The notes beneath the pieces are model-generated. The model was not told the origin of the DNA. It did not search any database and worked only from the letters and a program-made list of their open reading frames with translations. From Ruminococcus sp. (GTDB taxonomy: Bacteria; Bacillota; Clostridia; Oscillospirales; Ruminococcaceae), in assembly GCA_014799675.1 (NCBI GenBank), contig JAAVHM010000032.1:1-35677 (forward strand): DNA of 35,677 nt. The letters are read 5' to 3'. Of this stretch, positions 4,657 to 34,983 are shown in pieces. Both the position numbers and the translations under genes were made by a program. Within the stretch, counting starts at the first letter, position 1. Each line of letters starts with the position of its first letter.

Positions 4657-4700
4657 ATTTGTTTCATATTTCTGTACTATTTATTAACGATTTATTATTT
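4657..4700 (+). repeat. 11-nt tandem repeat array, locus 1 (4 units)
   Basis: ATTTGTTTCAT|ATTTCTGTACT|ATTTATTAACG|ATTTATTATTT, directly after the TGA of the upstream CDS. Confidence 0.75.
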
Positions 4701-6502: not shown

Positions 6503-7146
6503 TGGATTTTATTAACGAAACCAACGCTATCACGGGGCTTGCCGATACTATTATAAAGGGCGGCGTGAGCCTTTACAATGCTATAAAATACATCTATTCC
6601 CTGTCGGAAAGCGATTTTTACAACGTCAACATAAAGGACGCTTTCAAGGTGGTGCTGAACAACATCACCGATTCCGACAGCTTGCAGGCGCTTGGCTTGC
6701 GGATAAACGACGTGACCTGCGGCGAAATGCAGAACGACGAATACAACCGCGTTCTGCCCCTTATTGTGTACTCCTTTGCGGTACGTATCCCCACCCTCAA
6801 AACGGTTCGCGTAAACGACGACTGTATGTCGGACGACCAGCTGTACAAGCTTTACAACACCGTTATGGAAAAGGGCGCGGAGAATTACAACGACCTTATT
6901 GCGGAAACTTTCCTTGAAACAAAATACCTTGTCCGAAAGGGCAAAAAGCTTCCGCCGTTTACTGCGGACTGGTACAAGACTTACATCTACACCTGCGTGC
7001 CGTCTCTGGCGGAAATTACCAATAAAAATATGTTTTTGCTGGGATTTTCGGACGTGCTTTTTGCAATGTTTTACTCCTGCCTTGAGGAGGAGCTGAAAAA
7101 CAAAATGCTTGAATACACCGCCGACCTCCCCGAGGAAACAAAATAA
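6502..7146 (+). CDS. Hypothetical protein, translationally coupled to the upstream gene
   Basis: 214 aa ORF; start ATG overlaps the upstream TGA stop (TGATGG). Confidence 0.8.
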   Translation: MDFINETNAITGLADTIIKGGVSLYNAIKYIYSLSESDFYNVNIKDAFKVVLNNITDSDSLQALGLRINDVTCGEMQNDEYNRVLPLIVYSFAVRIPTLKTVRVNDDCMSDDQLYKLYNTVMEKGAENYNDLIAETFLETKYLVRKGKKLPPFTADWYKTYIYTCVPSLAEITNKNMFLLGFSDVLFAMFYSCLEEELKNKMLEYTADLPEETK

Positions 7147-7165
7147 AGCAAGAAAAGAAAGAAGC

Positions 7166-7663
7166 ATGATCATGAAAACAATTTATCTTTGCGGATTTAT
7201 GGGCTGCGGAAAAACCACTGTGGGAATGCTCTTAGCGCAAAAGCTGGGCTGTGAATTTTACGATATGGACGAGTATATCGTCCAGAGGGAAAAAATGAAA
7301 ATTCCCGAAATATTTGCGGAAAAGGGAGAAAAATATTTTCGTGAAACGGAAACGGCGGCAATAAAAGAGCTTGCCGAAAAGCATGGAGTTATAGCCTGCG
7401 GAGGCGGCGCAATGCTCAAAAAGGAAAACTCGGAAATAGCTTCGGAAAAGGGAATTGTGGTCTATATAGACGTTCCCTTTGAGGACTGTTATTCCCGAAT
7501 TTCCGGAGACAAAAACCGTCCCATAGTTATGAGCAACACCAAGGAGGAGCTTGAATTTATCTATGACAGCCGCGTGCCGCTTTACAAGGAAAACTCGGGA
7601 CTGACGGTCTCGGGGGACGGTTCGATAATTGAGATTACAGACAGGATAATCAAACAATTATGA
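7166..7663 (+). CDS. aroK: Shikimate kinase
   Basis: MIMKTIYLCGFMGCGKTTVGMLLAQKLGCEFYDMDEYI...ACGGGAMLKKEN...RISGDKNRPI; Walker A, DxD and GGG motifs. Confidence 0.95.
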   Translation: MIMKTIYLCGFMGCGKTTVGMLLAQKLGCEFYDMDEYIVQREKMKIPEIFAEKGEKYFRETETAAIKELAEKHGVIACGGGAMLKKENSEIASEKGIVVYIDVPFEDCYSRISGDKNRPIVMSNTKEELEFIYDSRVPLYKENSGLTVSGDGSIIEITDRIIKQL

Positions 7664-7699
7664 AATATTTACTAACTATTTATAGAATAATTATTAAAG
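7656..7699 (+). repeat. 11-nt tandem repeat array, locus 2 (4 units)
   Basis: AATTATGAAAT|ATTTACTAACT|ATTTATAGAAT|AATTATTAAAG, starting over the aroK stop codon. Confidence 0.75.
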
Positions 7700-16299: not shown

Positions 16300-16907
16300 A
16301 CACCTCTTTGCTTTTTCCGCAATTTCTTTGACAATTTATTTACAGGCTTTTCCTTTTTCTGTAACCTTTCCCCGCGCTTTTCCGAAATAAAAACATAGTA
16401 CCCGTCAATTTCCCGTACCCTTACCCCGCCGAAAACGGAGGTAAGCTTGTTCCTGTACCAGTCAAGGCGTTTGGTAACCATAACCATTTTTCCGCCAACA
16501 GCCAATTTTTTGAAACCCACCTCAATAAAACGCTTCGGCACGGAAAAATCCGCATGATACGGCGGGTTTGACAGTATCAAGGTGAAGCCGTTGTCCTGTA
16601 TTTCGGAAAAACCGTCGCTTATTTTAATTTCTATGTTCGGCACGCCGTTCAGCTCCGCGTTGATTTTCGCCTGCTTCACGGCGGCTTCGGAAATATCGCA
16701 CATGGCAACATTTTCCTGACCTATCAGCTTTGCCGCAAGAATTCCCACAACGCCGTATCCGCAGCCCATGTCCAACACTTTATCGCTCGGTAAAAAATCC
16801 ACAGCGGACAGCATAGCCAACGTCCCAACGTCAATGTTATTGGGAGAAAAGTTGGACGGGTCTGTTTCAAACTTCAGGCTCACATTTTTTATTTCTGCTG
16901 AAATCAT
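16296..16907 (-). CDS. RsmC-like class I methyltransferase
   Basis: 203 aa; VLDMGCGYGVVGILAAKL and NPPYH motifs. Confidence 0.9.
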   Translation of the reverse strand: MISAEIKNVSLKFETDPSNFSPNNIDVGTLAMLSAVDFLPSDKVLDMGCGYGVVGILAAKLIGQENVAMCDISEAAVKQAKINAELNGVPNIEIKISDGFSEIQDNGFTLILSNPPYHADFSVPKRFIEVGFKKLAVGGKMVMVTKRLDWYRNKLTSVFGGVRVREIDGYYVFISEKRGERLQKKEKPVNKLSKKLRKKQRGV

Positions 16908-16938
16908 TTTATCCTTTTCCCTCCGAAAGCGTGTATTC

Positions 16939-24254: not shown

Positions 24255-26246
24255 TTAAGCTGCAAACTCCTGAAAATTCTCGCTATTTTCTGTGTTTTCA
24301 GAACCTTCAACATTTCCTTCATTTTCAGTATTTTCAACGTTTTCAGTATTTTCGTTATTTTCTACATTTTCAGAATCTTCAACGTTTTCTGTATTTTCGT
24401 TATTTTCTACATTTTCAGAATCTTCAACGTTTTCCGTATTTTCGTTATTTTCAACACTCTCAGTATTTTCAACGTTCTCAACATTTTCAATATCTTCGGT
24501 GTTTTCCGCATTTTCAATATCTTCAACGTTTTCAGAATTTTCTGTATTTTCAAGATCTTCCGTTTCTTCAACTGCATCATCTGAATCTACAAACTTACCA
24601 ATAGGTTCAATATCAAAAGTAATTACCATGTTAAGCATAGCTTGACTTGAATACTGCACGCCCTCAGGAAGCACAGCCCGACCTACGATTTTAAAATATC
24701 CGGTAGTTTCGCCATTTGAACCGTCAGCAAGCGTAAGTATTTCCTTGGACACAGCTTCGCATGAAAATACAAGCTGATTATCACTATTATTATACGTATC
24801 GAAATATACGTTACTCTCATTTGTAGCTTCAATGTAAGCAAACGCAGTAAACTCCGTTTCATTGCCGGTCAAATCATAAGGAGAAATAACCATTCCTCCA
24901 TCAGCCGAAGCCGATGTCGTAGCAACGATCGAAACAGCACAATTACTGTAATTTTTTATAGAATATTCAGGACTTGATATAGAATAGTGAAAACCACTCT
25001 CATCAACGACCTTAAGATTATACGGATTAATTACAACAGAAATCGAAACAGGCAATACCACGCTAATTATAGGATTATCGTCTTCCTCCAAAGCCTCGCT
25101 GTCAGAGTCATCGGGATTTTCCTCATCTGCCGTATTGTCAGAATTTTCTTCATCAGAACTATCATTGTTTTCTTCATCTGCCGCATCGTCAGGGTCATTT
25201 TCATCTGTTATATCGTCTGAATTCTCGCTGTCGGAATCATCGGGATTTTCCTCATCTGTTATATTATCCGAATTCTCATTGTCAGAATTATCGGAATCAT
25301 CTTCGTCTCCTGCATTATCTGAATCCTCAATATCGGAATCATCATTGTTTTCATCATCTGTTGAACTGTCTTCATCTTCTTCGCCGGGATTATCGGAATC
25401 CTCTTCATCCGGTTCACTGTCGGAATCATCGGAAGTTTCAGAGTTTTCATCATCTTCTAAATCTTCATCATCAGATATGATTTCCTCTTCATCTGTAAAA
25501 TCATCACCATATATGATCTCTTCTTCATTTTCATCATCATTGTCTTCGTCGGTATCTCCAATCAAGTCATCGTCTGTAGAGCTATTATCACCTTCGGGCT
25601 GATAATTGTCTTCGGGATTTTCAGGAATTACTATATTATTATAATAGTCATCGGGGAAAATCGGCTTATTGGGATCCACAGGCATTATGTTCTCATTATC
25701 ATTAGAATTTGTAAATTCGTCTGTGTGGTCAACAATAATTTCATCATCGGGATCGCTAAGATTTTCCTCTTCCTTTGAAGTATCATCGGTTTCATTATCA
25801 ACGTTATCAGGCAGATCAGTACCCGCAAGCTCGTCACCGAAGTCATATTCGGAATTGTCGGGAACATTAATATTAATAATAGTACACATATCACAGCAAG
25901 TACCATTACAATTTTCGTCGCAAGCCGCACAGCATATACCATAACAATTATCACTTGGAATAAAAGGGTTTTCCGGTTCTGTATTTTCTGTATAATCAAC
26001 AGAATCTTCATCTTCCGTCACAGCCGGCAGCTCAGTATTGAAACCAAGCGTACTATCAGTACTATCAATATTATCACTATTTTCATCAATGCCGTTTTCA
26101 ACCTCAACATTGACTGCTGTATCATTATCAATTATATCTGTATCATCAGCAAATGCAGTGGCAGGCATTACAAACATTACAGCCAAAGCAAACAGTACTG
26201 CCAATGTAGAATTTCTCAATTTTTTTCTTAAATTAAAGAATTTCAT
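24255..26246 (-). CDS. Secreted, extremely acidic Asp/Glu/Asn/Ser-rich repeat protein with a cysteine-rich motif
   Basis: 663 aa; signal peptide STLAVLFALAVMFVMPATAFA; CYGICCAACDENCNGTCCDMC; long D/E/N/S tracts; C-terminal ENTENVEDSENVENN repeats. No LPxTG seen. Confidence 0.88.
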   Translation of the reverse strand: MKFFNLRKKLRNSTLAVLFALAVMFVMPATAFADDTDIIDNDTAVNVEVENGIDENSDNIDSTDSTLGFNTELPAVTEDEDSVDYTENTEPENPFIPSDNCYGICCAACDENCNGTCCDMCTIININVPDNSEYDFGDELAGTDLPDNVDNETDDTSKEEENLSDPDDEIIVDHTDEFTNSNDNENIMPVDPNKPIFPDDYYNNIVIPENPEDNYQPEGDNSSTDDDLIGDTDEDNDDENEEEIIYGDDFTDEEEIISDDEDLEDDENSETSDDSDSEPDEEDSDNPGEEDEDSSTDDENNDDSDIEDSDNAGDEDDSDNSDNENSDNITDEENPDDSDSENSDDITDENDPDDAADEENNDSSDEENSDNTADEENPDDSDSEALEEDDNPIISVVLPVSISVVINPYNLKVVDESGFHYSISSPEYSIKNYSNCAVSIVATTSASADGGMVISPYDLTGNETEFTAFAYIEATNESNVYFDTYNNSDNQLVFSCEAVSKEILTLADGSNGETTGYFKIVGRAVLPEGVQYSSQAMLNMVITFDIEPIGKFVDSDDAVEETEDLENTENSENVEDIENAENTEDIENVENVENTESVENNENTENVEDSENVENNENTENVEDSENVENNENTENVENTENEGNVEGSENTENSENFQEFAA

Positions 26247-26404: not shown

Positions 26405-26481
26405 TTTTAGCAAATAGTATGTAAATTATATATAATTACTTAGTAATTAGTTAGTAAATATTCTGTAATTTCTTAATAAAT
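26405..26481 (-). repeat. 11-nt tandem repeat array, locus 3 (7 units)
   Basis: Minus strand ATTTATTAAGA|AATTACAGAAT|ATTTACTAACT|AATTACTAAGT|AATTATATATA|ATTTACATACT|ATTTGCTAAAA. Confidence 0.8.
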
Positions 26482-26533: not shown

Positions 26534-27619
26534 TTATATATTTGCTTTTTCCTCACAGAATATTTTTTCTCGGCAAACTGCGTACAGAACCGACATCACG
26601 GGAACTCCCAAAAGTATTCCCGCTGCGCCGCCTATGCCTGCCCCCAAAAGAATGGCAAGAAGTACCAAAATAGGAGGTATTCCCAAGCTTTTTCCAACCA
26701 CTCGGGGGTAGATGAGATTATTTTCCAACTGCTGCAATACTATTATAAATACCACGAACCACACGGCTTTTATAGGTTTTATCAGAAGTAAAAGAAACGC
26801 CGCGGGAACTGTCCCGATAATCGCTCCAACTACGGGAATAAGCGCGGTTACACCGATTATTGTGCTTATCAGGAGAGCGTACTCGAAACGGAAAAGCTTC
26901 ATGCCGATAAAGCAGAGGACGCCGAGAATGACCGCCTCGGTTATCTGACCGCTGACGAAGCGGCTGAACGTGCTGAAAACCAGTCTGTAGCCGCTGCGTA
27001 GCTTTTCGTAACGCTCCCCCGCAAGTCGTTTTGCGGTGACGGAGACCGCTTTTCTGATATTTTCCTTGTCAATAAGGATATATATGGAAATTACAAAGCC
27101 AATAAGCAGGTCTACCACGCTTCCGATCATGTCGGAGGTCTTGGCATAGGTTGTCCCCAAAATGGCAGGAAGACGTTCCCCCAGACCCGTTACTGCGCTC
27201 TTTAGGGAGGAAAAAATCCCCAGCGTGTCGCGCTTTTCCAATGCGTCGCAGTAGCCTATAAAATTGCTGTAGTAGTAATCGGCGTTGCTGATAAAAAGCT
27301 TCACGCTGGCGGCAAGCTGGGGGACGATTATCCAGACAATTCCAACAGCCAAAGCGGCAAGAAGCAGGTAGGACACCGCCACGGACAGTATAGTCACGCA
27401 CCGACTGCAATTTCTGAACTTTCCCGAAAAAAGCTTCTGGAAGCGGCAAACGGGCATATTCATGACGAACGCAATGGCAAGCCCCAAAAACACGGGCATG
27501 AGGACGTCCAACAGCCTTGAAATAATTCCCATAAAAAATTCGGGCTTTATCACGGCGGCGACTGCTCCCGCTGCCAAAAATACTGCAATTATTATAGTTC
27601 TTACCGTTTTTTTATCCAT
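26534..27619 (-). CDS. AI-2E transporter family (PerM-like) membrane protein
   Basis: 361 aa with multiple TM segments; ALIPVVGAIIGTVPAAFLLLL and QQLENNLIYPRVVGKSLGIPPILVLLAILLGAGIGGAAGILLGVPV. Confidence 0.92.
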   Translation of the reverse strand: MDKKTVRTIIIAVFLAAGAVAAVIKPEFFMGIISRLLDVLMPVFLGLAIAFVMNMPVCRFQKLFSGKFRNCSRCVTILSVAVSYLLLAALAVGIVWIIVPQLAASVKLFISNADYYYSNFIGYCDALEKRDTLGIFSSLKSAVTGLGERLPAILGTTYAKTSDMIGSVVDLLIGFVISIYILIDKENIRKAVSVTAKRLAGERYEKLRSGYRLVFSTFSRFVSGQITEAVILGVLCFIGMKLFRFEYALLISTIIGVTALIPVVGAIIGTVPAAFLLLLIKPIKAVWFVVFIIVLQQLENNLIYPRVVGKSLGIPPILVLLAILLGAGIGGAAGILLGVPVMSVLYAVCREKIFCEEKANI

Positions 27620-31742: not shown

Positions 31743-34700
31743 ATGAAGAAAAAATTAATTCTGAACACTTTAAGAAGCGTTAAAAACACGAAGAGCCGAT
31801 TTTTTGCAATTATGGCAATTATTGCTATCGGCTGCGGTTTTTTTGCGGGAGTAAAGTCGGCGGGTCCCGACATGAAGCTAAGCGCGGCGGATTATTTTGA
31901 AAAGCAGGGCTTGGCGGACATACATATGATGTCAGCTCTCGGCTTCGACGACGAGGACGTGACGGCGGTCTCCGACACGGGAATTGCCGATGAGATCTAT
32001 GCGGGATATTCCGCAGACCTTATTATAGAGGGCGGCGACAACAACGGAAAAATTGTCAAGACCTATTCCTATAACAAGGACAGCGGCATTAATTTGCCAT
32101 ATCTTACCGAGGGGCGGCTTCCCGAAAAAGCTGACGAAATCGTGGTGGACGAAAAATTTTACTCGGCTGTCACGCCGAATATCGGCGACAAGATAACCCT
32201 TACTGCCGACGGTGACAACGATATTTCCGATTATCTTTCCCGCGCCGAATTCACCGTTGTGGGAAAAGCCCGTCTGCCTGTTTATGTGGCTTACGACAGG
32301 GGCAGCGCAGGCTTCGGAAACGGCGTTATAAACGGCTGGCTGCTTATTCCCGAGGAAAATTTTTCCTATGATATCTACACGGATATTTATGTACGGCTTT
32401 CGGAAACAGCGGACGTTGACCCATTTACCAATAAATATGAGGAAATTATTGACAGCAGCATTGACCGTCTCGAAGAGCTTGGGGAGGTTCAGATAGAACA
32501 CCGCAAAAACGTAGTTCTTGAGGAAGCTTACGAGGAGATAGACGATGCAAAGGCGGAGGTTGCTGACGGTGAAGCTGAAATTGCTGAAAACGAGCAGAAG
32601 CTTGCTGATGCGGAAAAGGAAATTGCCGACGGCGAGGCGGAAATTTCCGAAAATTTGCAGAAAATTGCCGACGCCGAAAAAGAAATTGCCGACGGTCAGG
32701 AAGAGCTTACAGACAGAGAAATTGAGTACCATGACGGCGAAAGATTTATAAACATAATGAACGGCACTGTAAATTGGATAAACGGAATTATCGATGATTA
32801 CGCTGTCAACGCTGCGGCAAATGAAACGGAGATTTCCGAAAAAATAGAAAGTTACCCCTCCAATGACTTTTTTGCCGTGGACGAAACTTTGCAGCAGCTT
32901 ATAACAGGGTATATGTCCATACCCGCGGCGTATGACGACGGCACGAAATCCGCCTGCGGACAGGGTTTGCGGCAATATTCGGCGGAGCTTTCCGCACAGG
33001 CGCAGGAGTTGGAAACGACCCTTGCAGAGTCAAGAATACAGCTTGACAATGCCAAAGCGGAACTTGACAACGCCCGCGCGGAGGTTGCCGAGGGAAAAGA
33101 AGAAATTGAAAAGGCAAGAACGGAAATTGCTGACGGAAAACAGGAAATCGCGGACGGCAAAAAAGAAATTGCCGACGCAAAAAAGGAAATAGAGGAAGCA
33201 AAAGAGGAAATTGCCGACGCGGAGAGAGAGGCCCACGAGGCTGTTGATGATGCGGAATGGTACGTTTTCGACCGCGACTTCAACCCGTACTACTCCCACT
33301 ATGCGGAGGACTGCGAGCGCGTGGACGCTATCGCGGCGGTGTTCCCTATCTTCTTTATTCTGGTGGCGGCGTTGGTTTGCTGCACCACAATGACCCGAAT
33401 GGTTGAGGAACAGCGTACCCAGATCGGAACGCTGAAAGCCCTCGGTTACAGCAGATTTACCATTATTTCGCAGTACATTCTATACGCTTTGGCGGCAAGC
33501 ATACCCGGCGGGTTTGTGGGGCTTCTGATAGGCTTCAACACGCTTCCCCGAGTAATTTTCGTGTGCTATCAAAGTATGTACACTCAACCTTATCTTATTG
33601 CGAATTTCAAGTGGGATTACGCTATCGGCTGCATTACGGCGGCTTGTCTTTGCACGGGGCTTTCCGCGCTTTACGCAAGCAGGCAGGAACTGGTTTCCTG
33701 TCCCGCCCAGCTTATGCGACCCAAGCCACCAAAGGACGGCAAGCGTATACTATTAGAAAGAATAACCTTTATATGGAAGCGGTTAAAGTTTACCACAAAG
33801 GTAACTTTCCGAAATCTTTTCAGATACAAGGCGCGGCTTCTTATGACAGTTATTGGAATTGCAGGCTGTACGGCTCTTTTGCTGACAGGATTTGGATTAA
33901 AGGAGTCAATTTCGGCGATAGTTGACAGGCAGTACGGCGATATTTTCAGATATGACGCACTTGCGGCTCTGGACGAGGATTCCGGGGCGGAATTTTCCGA
34001 AATAATTTCCGACTGCGAAAGCTCGGGTATCGTTACCGAAAAAATGCTTGTTATGCAGGGTACGGAGGACGTTTGGAGCGATTTATCAAACGGTGAAAAA
34101 TTTGAAGCATATATAATGGTACCCAGCGAAGCGGAGAATTTCAGAAGCTTTATCGACCTGCACACGCGGCAGGGCAAGTCTCCAATTGAGCTTGGAGACG
34201 GGGTTGTGCTTGGTGAAAAGCTTGCAAGATTTCTCGGTGTCAAGGTTGGGGACGAGGTTTATTTTGCGGAAAATAAGCCTATCCGCGTGGACGGAATTTG
34301 CGAAAACTACACCTTTAACTATGCGTACATGAAGCCAGAGACTTACGCAAAGACGGGGCTTGGGGAGTTGAAAAACAATATCCTGCTGATGAATATGACG
34401 GACGAAAACGCAAGCGACCAGCTTTCGGAAGTGCTTTTGGAGCATGAGGCGGTGCTTGGCATAAGCTACTCCAGCGGCGGCGGAGACAAGTTCCGCGACC
34501 TTGTGGACAGCCTTGCGCTGATAGTTGTTGCGATAATCGCTTCGGCGGGGGCGCTGGCGTTTGTGGTACTGTTCAATCTTTCCAACATCAACGTGAACGA
34601 GCGTATCAGGGAGCTTGCCACCATAAAGGTTCTTGGCTTTTTCGACGGCGAGGTTGCGGCGTACATATATCGTGAGAACATTCTCTCCACTATAATGGGT

Positions 34701-34913
34701 ACGGGCGCGGGACTTATACTGGGAATTTTCCTTGAAAAATTTGTAGTGCAGACCGCCGAGGTCGACGCGGTAATGTTTGCCCCGGGAATTGCGGCGTACT
34801 GCTTCTTTGCGGCGGCGGCAATAAGCGTATTCTTCTCGGTTTTGGTGAATATTACGCTGTATTTCAGGCTTAAAAAGATAGATATGGCGACGTCCTTAAA
34901 GGCTATAGAGTAA
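31743..34913 (+). CDS. FtsX-family ABC permease with large extracytoplasmic coiled-coil insert
   Basis: 1056 aa; TM segments at N-terminus, middle and C-terminus; heptad-like EIADGEAEIxEN and AEVAEGKEEIEKARTEIADGKQEI repeats. Confidence 0.95.
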   Translation: MKKKLILNTLRSVKNTKSRFFAIMAIIAIGCGFFAGVKSAGPDMKLSAADYFEKQGLADIHMMSALGFDDEDVTAVSDTGIADEIYAGYSADLIIEGGDNNGKIVKTYSYNKDSGINLPYLTEGRLPEKADEIVVDEKFYSAVTPNIGDKITLTADGDNDISDYLSRAEFTVVGKARLPVYVAYDRGSAGFGNGVINGWLLIPEENFSYDIYTDIYVRLSETADVDPFTNKYEEIIDSSIDRLEELGEVQIEHRKNVVLEEAYEEIDDAKAEVADGEAEIAENEQKLADAEKEIADGEAEISENLQKIADAEKEIADGQEELTDREIEYHDGERFINIMNGTVNWINGIIDDYAVNAAANETEISEKIESYPSNDFFAVDETLQQLITGYMSIPAAYDDGTKSACGQGLRQYSAELSAQAQELETTLAESRIQLDNAKAELDNARAEVAEGKEEIEKARTEIADGKQEIADGKKEIADAKKEIEEAKEEIADAEREAHEAVDDAEWYVFDRDFNPYYSHYAEDCERVDAIAAVFPIFFILVAALVCCTTMTRMVEEQRTQIGTLKALGYSRFTIISQYILYALAASIPGGFVGLLIGFNTLPRVIFVCYQSMYTQPYLIANFKWDYAIGCITAACLCTGLSALYASRQELVSCPAQLMRPKPPKDGKRILLERITFIWKRLKFTTKVTFRNLFRYKARLLMTVIGIAGCTALLLTGFGLKESISAIVDRQYGDIFRYDALAALDEDSGAEFSEIISDCESSGIVTEKMLVMQGTEDVWSDLSNGEKFEAYIMVPSEAENFRSFIDLHTRQGKSPIELGDGVVLGEKLARFLGVKVGDEVYFAENKPIRVDGICENYTFNYAYMKPETYAKTGLGELKNNILLMNMTDENASDQLSEVLLEHEAVLGISYSSGGGDKFRDLVDSLALIVVAIIASAGALAFVVLFNLSNINVNERIRELATIKVLGFFDGEVAAYIYRENILSTIMGTGAGLILGIFLEKFVVQTAEVDAVMFAPGIAAYCFFAAAAISVFFSVLVNITLYFRLKKIDMATSLKAIE

Positions 34914-34917
34914 GTTT

Positions 34918-34983
34918 ATTTGCAGATTATTTACAGAATATTTATAGACCATTTGCTGAATATTTATGTATTATTTGCTAACA
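34918..34983 (+). repeat. 11-nt tandem repeat array, locus 4 (6 units)
   Basis: ATTTGCAGATT|ATTTACAGAAT|ATTTATAGACC|ATTTGCTGAAT|ATTTATGTATT|ATTTGCTAACA. Confidence 0.85.

Follow-up and report, generated by a model that had tools for sequence, protein, structure and literature searches.

Four tandem arrays with an 11-nt period are located next to protein-coding genes in the window, the whole stretch of 35,677 nucleotides that was analysed (positions 1 to 35,677 of contig JAAVHM010000032.1, Ruminococcus sp.). The arrays and two of the genes upstream of them are as follows.

4657..4700, plus strand: array A, four units; stop codon of a choline-binding-repeat protein directly 5', intrinsic-terminator-like hairpin 3'
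7109..7663, plus strand: shikimate kinase gene (PF01202, 4.7e-49), upstream of array B
7656..7699, plus strand: array B, four units; overlaps the shikimate kinase stop codon, terminator-like hairpin 3'
26405..26481, minus strand: array C, seven units; AI-2E-type transporter gene (26534-27619, minus strand) upstream, 663-aa ORF downstream
31743..34913, plus strand: FtsX/MacB-like permease gene (PF02687, PF12704), upstream of array D
34918..34983, plus strand: array D, six 11-nt units; stop codon of the FtsX-like permease (34911-34913) upstream, RBS/start (35008) of a PASTA/beta-lactamase2-family gene downstream

Array D consisted of six contiguous 11-mers starting 5 nt past the TAA that ends at 34913, as described in the initial annotation, and the three other arrays listed there, of four, four and seven units, were likewise all present, with 21/21 units fitting A.TT.Y. 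Position 1 was A, positions 3 and 4 were TT and position 6 was C or T in all 21 units, and position 9 was A in 19/21. The description of array D as an exact 11-nt repeat holds for its period and fails for its units, which are non-identical. Among lags 2 to 33, the highest self-match was at 11 in both array A and array B; in arrays C and D lag 11 was tied with or second to lags 22/33. The window contained 14 matches to the three-unit pattern, whereas 200 local dinucleotide shuffles gave 0.1 on average and never more than 2. The first 8 nt of array B lie within the shikimate kinase coding sequence with the stop codon inside the array, and array C starts 52 nt past the AI-2E transporter stop with a hairpin-like inverted repeat in between. 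Other features of the window included a long in-frame repeat of 27/45/72 nt (24280-24569) within the 663-aa ORF (24255-26246, minus strand, no Pfam match) and a bacterial small SRP RNA gene at 1465-1563 on the minus strand (Rfam RF00169, 68.9 bits).

Consensus and distribution of the array family

The three-unit pattern was matched 46 times on both strands of the window's genome (G000; an assembly of 2.24 Mb in 175 contigs, 79% complete) against 4 for the reversed pattern, and its strict version, with one mismatch allowed, gave 13 matches against 0 for the reversed control. The view that the arrays form a family is supported. Among 20 congeners, arrays were identified by the strict pattern in G015 (Ruminococcus sp. 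NALB_7823_30, one contig of which is JAMPDU010000029.1, 27,316 bp), G020 and G016, with G011 added by a 44-nt sequence model and G018 by direct inspection. About fifteen array places were present in G015, eight to nine in G000 and a few in G020, G016, G011 and G018.

Outside this clade the sequence model gave isolated single matches at most among the genomes searched in the family (299) and in the order (396), where weak arrays could be missed because searches on this scale score only a small number of candidates in each genome; past the model and pattern matches, the census is a sample of genomes. Matches to the strict pattern in 85,488 species genomes were mostly homogeneous or composition-driven, the high-scoring heterogeneous matches with this consensus being G015 contigs, and viral contigs gave homogeneous 11-nt arrays only. 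The array family is restricted to one clade of the genus Ruminococcus. No Rfam family matched the arrays and no paper on a matching element was found, in agreement with the earlier remark that no named element has this form. Heterogeneous arrays of a near-palindromic 11-nt unit (AWTTRYAAATN), which likewise begin at a stop codon, were seen in Pseudanabaena (L251:6458-6523) and in Clostridia MAGs (L253:810-864 and L298:4421-4464), and may reflect something related in distant bacteria, or else be chance matches in a pre-selected set.

Twenty-seven tabulated arrays with 156 units gave the consensus A(T/A)TT-RY-NN-A-N-T. Positions 5 and 6 were strongly coupled (GC in 63 units, AT in 58, AC in 13 and GT in 7), and positions 7 and 8 were mainly TA, AG, TG, GA or GT with AA nearly absent. 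Exactly six units were present in 15/27 arrays. Several arrays showed a 22-nt super-period, with GC and AT units in alternation, which was not significant (P = 0.13). A fixed order of units, as in a single 66-mer element, was not supported overall in non-orthologous arrays (order similarity 0.413 vs 0.391 +/- 0.018). Similarity from array to array ended at the array edges, the flanks were not shared and a search for MITE-like ends gave none. The arrays are like REP/REPIN and MITE elements in being short repeats dispersed between genes, at sites that are empty in relatives, and unlike them in being without a hairpin, terminal or inverted repeats, shared flanks or a fixed unit order.

Array places, orientation and the RNA level

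Most arrays adjoin a stop codon or overlap it, without disrupting the RBS or terminator that follows. Places common to G000 and G015 were those following the FtsX permease, shikimate kinase, the choline-binding-type gene (a six-unit array at L095:3334-3399 in G015, corresponding to array A), rsmA (rRNA dimethyltransferase) and the gene before T2SSF, and an array between ybaB and recR was common to G015 and G020. The shikimate kinase place had four units in G000, six in G015 and none in the 16 further congeners that carry this gene, and the FtsX place, orthologous to array D, had six units in G020 and five in G015; unit number differs between orthologs at shikimate kinase (4 vs 6), FtsX (6 vs 5) and recR (8 vs 7). 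At the FtsX place the spacer of most congeners is just 20-30 nt, and at the T2SSF place that of other congeners is about 13-60 nt, mostly 15-30 nt. Since clade spacers at these two places are some 55-66 bp longer, the arrays represent gains. Arrays of G016, G018 and G011 were found near the same genes (shikimate kinase, purA and a DUF4130 gene) at different exact places.

The initial annotation had placed every array 3' of a coding sequence and on its sense strand, which is correct within the window and does not hold for the wider set. Antisense arrays were located at L090:14597 and at L091:2234 in G015, the latter conserved in G000 (L101:1018), divergent gene pairs flank arrays on G000 contig C29 and G011 contig C43, and the G016 and G018 arrays adjoin the start codon of a DUF1015 gene. 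In G016 (C14, L351 ~16830-16930) a heptamer array (GAGAGTT/AAGAGTT) directly adjoins the 11-nt array that precedes this gene. Independent loci of the wider set, sorted by hand, were divided into about 12-13 sense and 2-3 antisense, a bias towards sense (p ~0.01-0.02).

This bias, with sense arrays at 12-13 of 14-16 independent loci and most of them at stop codons, would fit sites acting in RNA, where Rho or another RNA-binding ring or oligomer docks past the stop on the ribosome-free sense (or antisense) transcript with one contact per 11 nt. In Rho sites, cytosines recur at intervals of 11-13 nt along about 78 nt (PMC6407284), and six contacts at about 11 nt recall Rho. The arrays resemble rut sites in their length of ~66-78 nt, their 11-nt regularity and their position at an unstructured, ribosome-free spot past stops, and RNA folding of the arrays showed no excess over dinucleotide, column or unit shuffles. 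The base composition of the sense strand is opposed to this, as C was less frequent than G (158 vs 256), C exceeded G in 4/23 windows and six regular cytosines occurred in 0/23, so that arrays differ from rut sites in being C-poor with regular cytosines mostly absent. The antisense strand is closer to a Rho site in that C exceeded G in 19/23 windows, with six regular cytosines in 1/23. The antisense arrays of G015 and G000 and those at divergent promoters do not suit a role in sense 3' UTRs and favour the DNA over the RNA level. We consider action in RNA unlikely.

At the DNA level, the initial annotation had raised phased curvature. On this reading, ATTT tracts spaced by about one helical turn would bend the DNA or phase nucleoid proteins as a local form of the genomic A-tract periodicity. 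A periodicity of ~11 bp is characteristic of bacterial genomes (PMC4132750), and the arrays, like phased A-tract clusters, carry A/T tracts about 11 bp apart, without TpA inside the tracts. The predicted bend did not exceed that of dinucleotide shuffles (mean z 0.17) in a wedge model that gave a bend of 119 degrees for the A5N5 positive control. Curvature would need neither the G5-C6 versus A5-T6 coupling nor A9, and the arrays are unlike phased A-tracts in having a sequence-specific consensus beyond the tracts and in being confined to one clade. An origin of the arrays in intrinsic curvature is thus very unlikely.

Evolution of the units

Slippage is the usual explanation for tandem repeats. 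Eleven-nt tandem repeats are present in many genomes and the unit numbers of orthologous arrays change, as slippage minisatellites would do. However, 11-nt arrays elsewhere were mostly homogeneous (76/113 with a unit identity of at least 0.8), whereas identity between units here was 0.578 within an array and 0.579 between unrelated arrays, with 0.580 +/- 0.007 for random dealing. This equality argues against slippage, which would leave similarity within arrays. Chance in AT-rich spacers is excluded by the shuffles and reversed-pattern controls, and the two explanations taken together appear highly improbable.

In four pairs of orthologous arrays, agreement was 63/69 (91%) at core positions 3, 4 and 9 and 131/184 (71%) at the remaining unit positions, relative to 221/368 (60%) at four-fold sites in genes nearby (core vs four-fold, P = 9e-8), in a small sample of 23 aligned unit pairs whose registers were set by hand and whose arrays were mostly found with the motif itself. 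The earlier view that recent slippage does not account for the units is supported by these values together with the equal identities within and between arrays. Two G015 arrays at unrelated loci (L091:2234-2288 and L093:13893-13947) were 87-89% identical, above the similarity of orthologs (P = 0.02), which suggests that recent copying or gene conversion may occur between some arrays. Orthologous arrays of G020 appeared partly decayed. The family is real, without a name, restricted to a clade and unusual in its evolution.

The main rival to the DNA-level platform set out below is an origin as old mobile or parasitic short tandem repeats, comparable to the STRR heptamers of cyanobacteria, that were copied to many intergenic places in the ancestor of the clade, were harmless just past stops and are now drifting with gain and loss of 11-nt units. 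The arrays share with STRR heptamers and other bacterial short tandem repeats a short period, an intergenic, dispersed and lineage-specific distribution and a variable unit number, and the empty sites in relatives with gains of 55-66 bp, the changes in unit number between orthologs, the closely similar G015 pair and the decayed look of the G020 copies would all be accommodated, as would the further dispersed short-period repeats of period 7 in the genus. They are unlike STRR in having a period of 11 in place of 7, in being no more alike within arrays than between them and in the conservation of core letters and places across species. Drift from a single ancestral unit would not be expected to give the bimodal GC/AT coupling, nor would inserted copies be expected to lack an overall memory of unit order, to share neither ends nor flanks and to hold their core letters above the level of four-fold sites. 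Old inserted repeats are accordingly a possible origin, though we lean against it.

An AT-rich repeat of period 7 (AATTAAT/AATTAAC, core AATTGTTAATTATTAATTAA) was dispersed at many intergenic sites in G000 and G015, including L101:2150-2300 (G000 C54), L321:2683, L329:4766, L338:12074 and L303:4287, and in one case flanks an 11-nt array. It is probably an independent STRR-like family.

Regional clustering and a putative multi-site protein platform

Array places were clustered within the genomes. The ~15 places of G015 fell on 6 of about 210 contigs where 14.5 contigs were expected, and 0/200,000 simulations were as clustered; the nine places of G000 fell on 5/175 contigs (P = 2e-5) with four of them on the contig of the window. 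Forty other stretches of G000 and G015 were scanned exhaustively and contained essentially no arrays, and the dnaA contig of G015 (42.7 kb) had none in its first 40 kb. The region rich in arrays is not this contig, which also bears parS sites. No convincing dif-like site was detected on the array contigs, which is a weak test for the terminus, and gene order was scrambled across the genus.

ParB sites were considered as a candidate and rejected, as the perfect G015 matches to the 16-bp parS palindrome (TGTTTCACGTGAAACA) were all located off the array contigs; one array contig of G015 (C133) had a single parS site with 1 mismatch. Ten perfect parS sites were present within 7 kb on the dnaA contig of G015 (C11, L309:229-7036). 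At one mismatch there were none in G016, G018, G011, G012 and G004, and parS content varies strongly within the genus.

The explanation that we favour, tentatively and at somewhat below even probability, is that the arrays are DNA-level platforms of degenerate sites to which a putative protein binds once per helical turn. Each 11-bp unit (A[T/A]TT-[GC or AT]-[TA, AG, TG, GA or GT]-A-N-T) would be one degenerate site, and the 11-bp pitch would place about six copies of a sequence-specific protein nearly on one face of the helix, from where they could bind cooperatively as a filament or ring. The ancestor of a small clade within Ruminococcus would have acquired the arrays in its intergenic DNA, with units since gained or lost in steps of 11 and the arrays retained by selection on the core letters. 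Units that are no more alike within an array than between unrelated arrays fit independent draws from a binding motif, and the coupling at positions 5-6 and 7-8 points to step-specific recognition. A platform would also accommodate the constant register, the conservation of the core letters, the frequent count of six units, the lack of shared flanks, the antisense and divergent copies and the clustering of places. The protein, its cooperativity and any role in chromosome organisation, anchoring or insulation are inferred. Several observations count against the platform, including the sense bias, which a purely DNA-level site does not predict, the similar G015 pair and the decayed-looking G020 arrays, and as the units are AT-rich and degenerate some of the conservation could reflect composition. 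The values for core conservation come, moreover, from the 23 unit pairs of mostly motif-selected arrays.

The nearest working analogue is plasmid R1, where ParR binds 11-bp repeats (PMC9426499). The parC iterons are like the arrays in being direct repeats at an 11-bp pitch with five to six contiguous units per cluster and a geometry suited to cooperative binding, and differ from them in that the arrays are chromosomal, dispersed in many copies between unrelated genes and far more degenerate. No parM/parR-like genes were found by Pfam among the genes adjacent to arrays, and parC is for this reason an analogue only. It is conceivable, if rather doubtful, that the arrays form a clade-specific chromosomal iteron system in which the arrays, dispersed but grouped by region and with about six degenerate 11-bp sites apiece, would each nucleate a protein filament or ring and jointly label part of the chromosome. 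Such a system would differ from parS/ParB, from SMC loading sites and from the known sites of nucleoid proteins.

The units are without trace of local copying, yet their register and core letters are kept where four-fold sites are only ~60% identical. If a protein is responsible, this would represent a new system of multi-site DNA binding whose geometry recalls a centromere and which extends across a chromosome region of gut bacteria. If there is no such protein, the arrays would be well suited to studying the origin of heterogeneous tandem repeats at stop codons, another process that is poorly understood.
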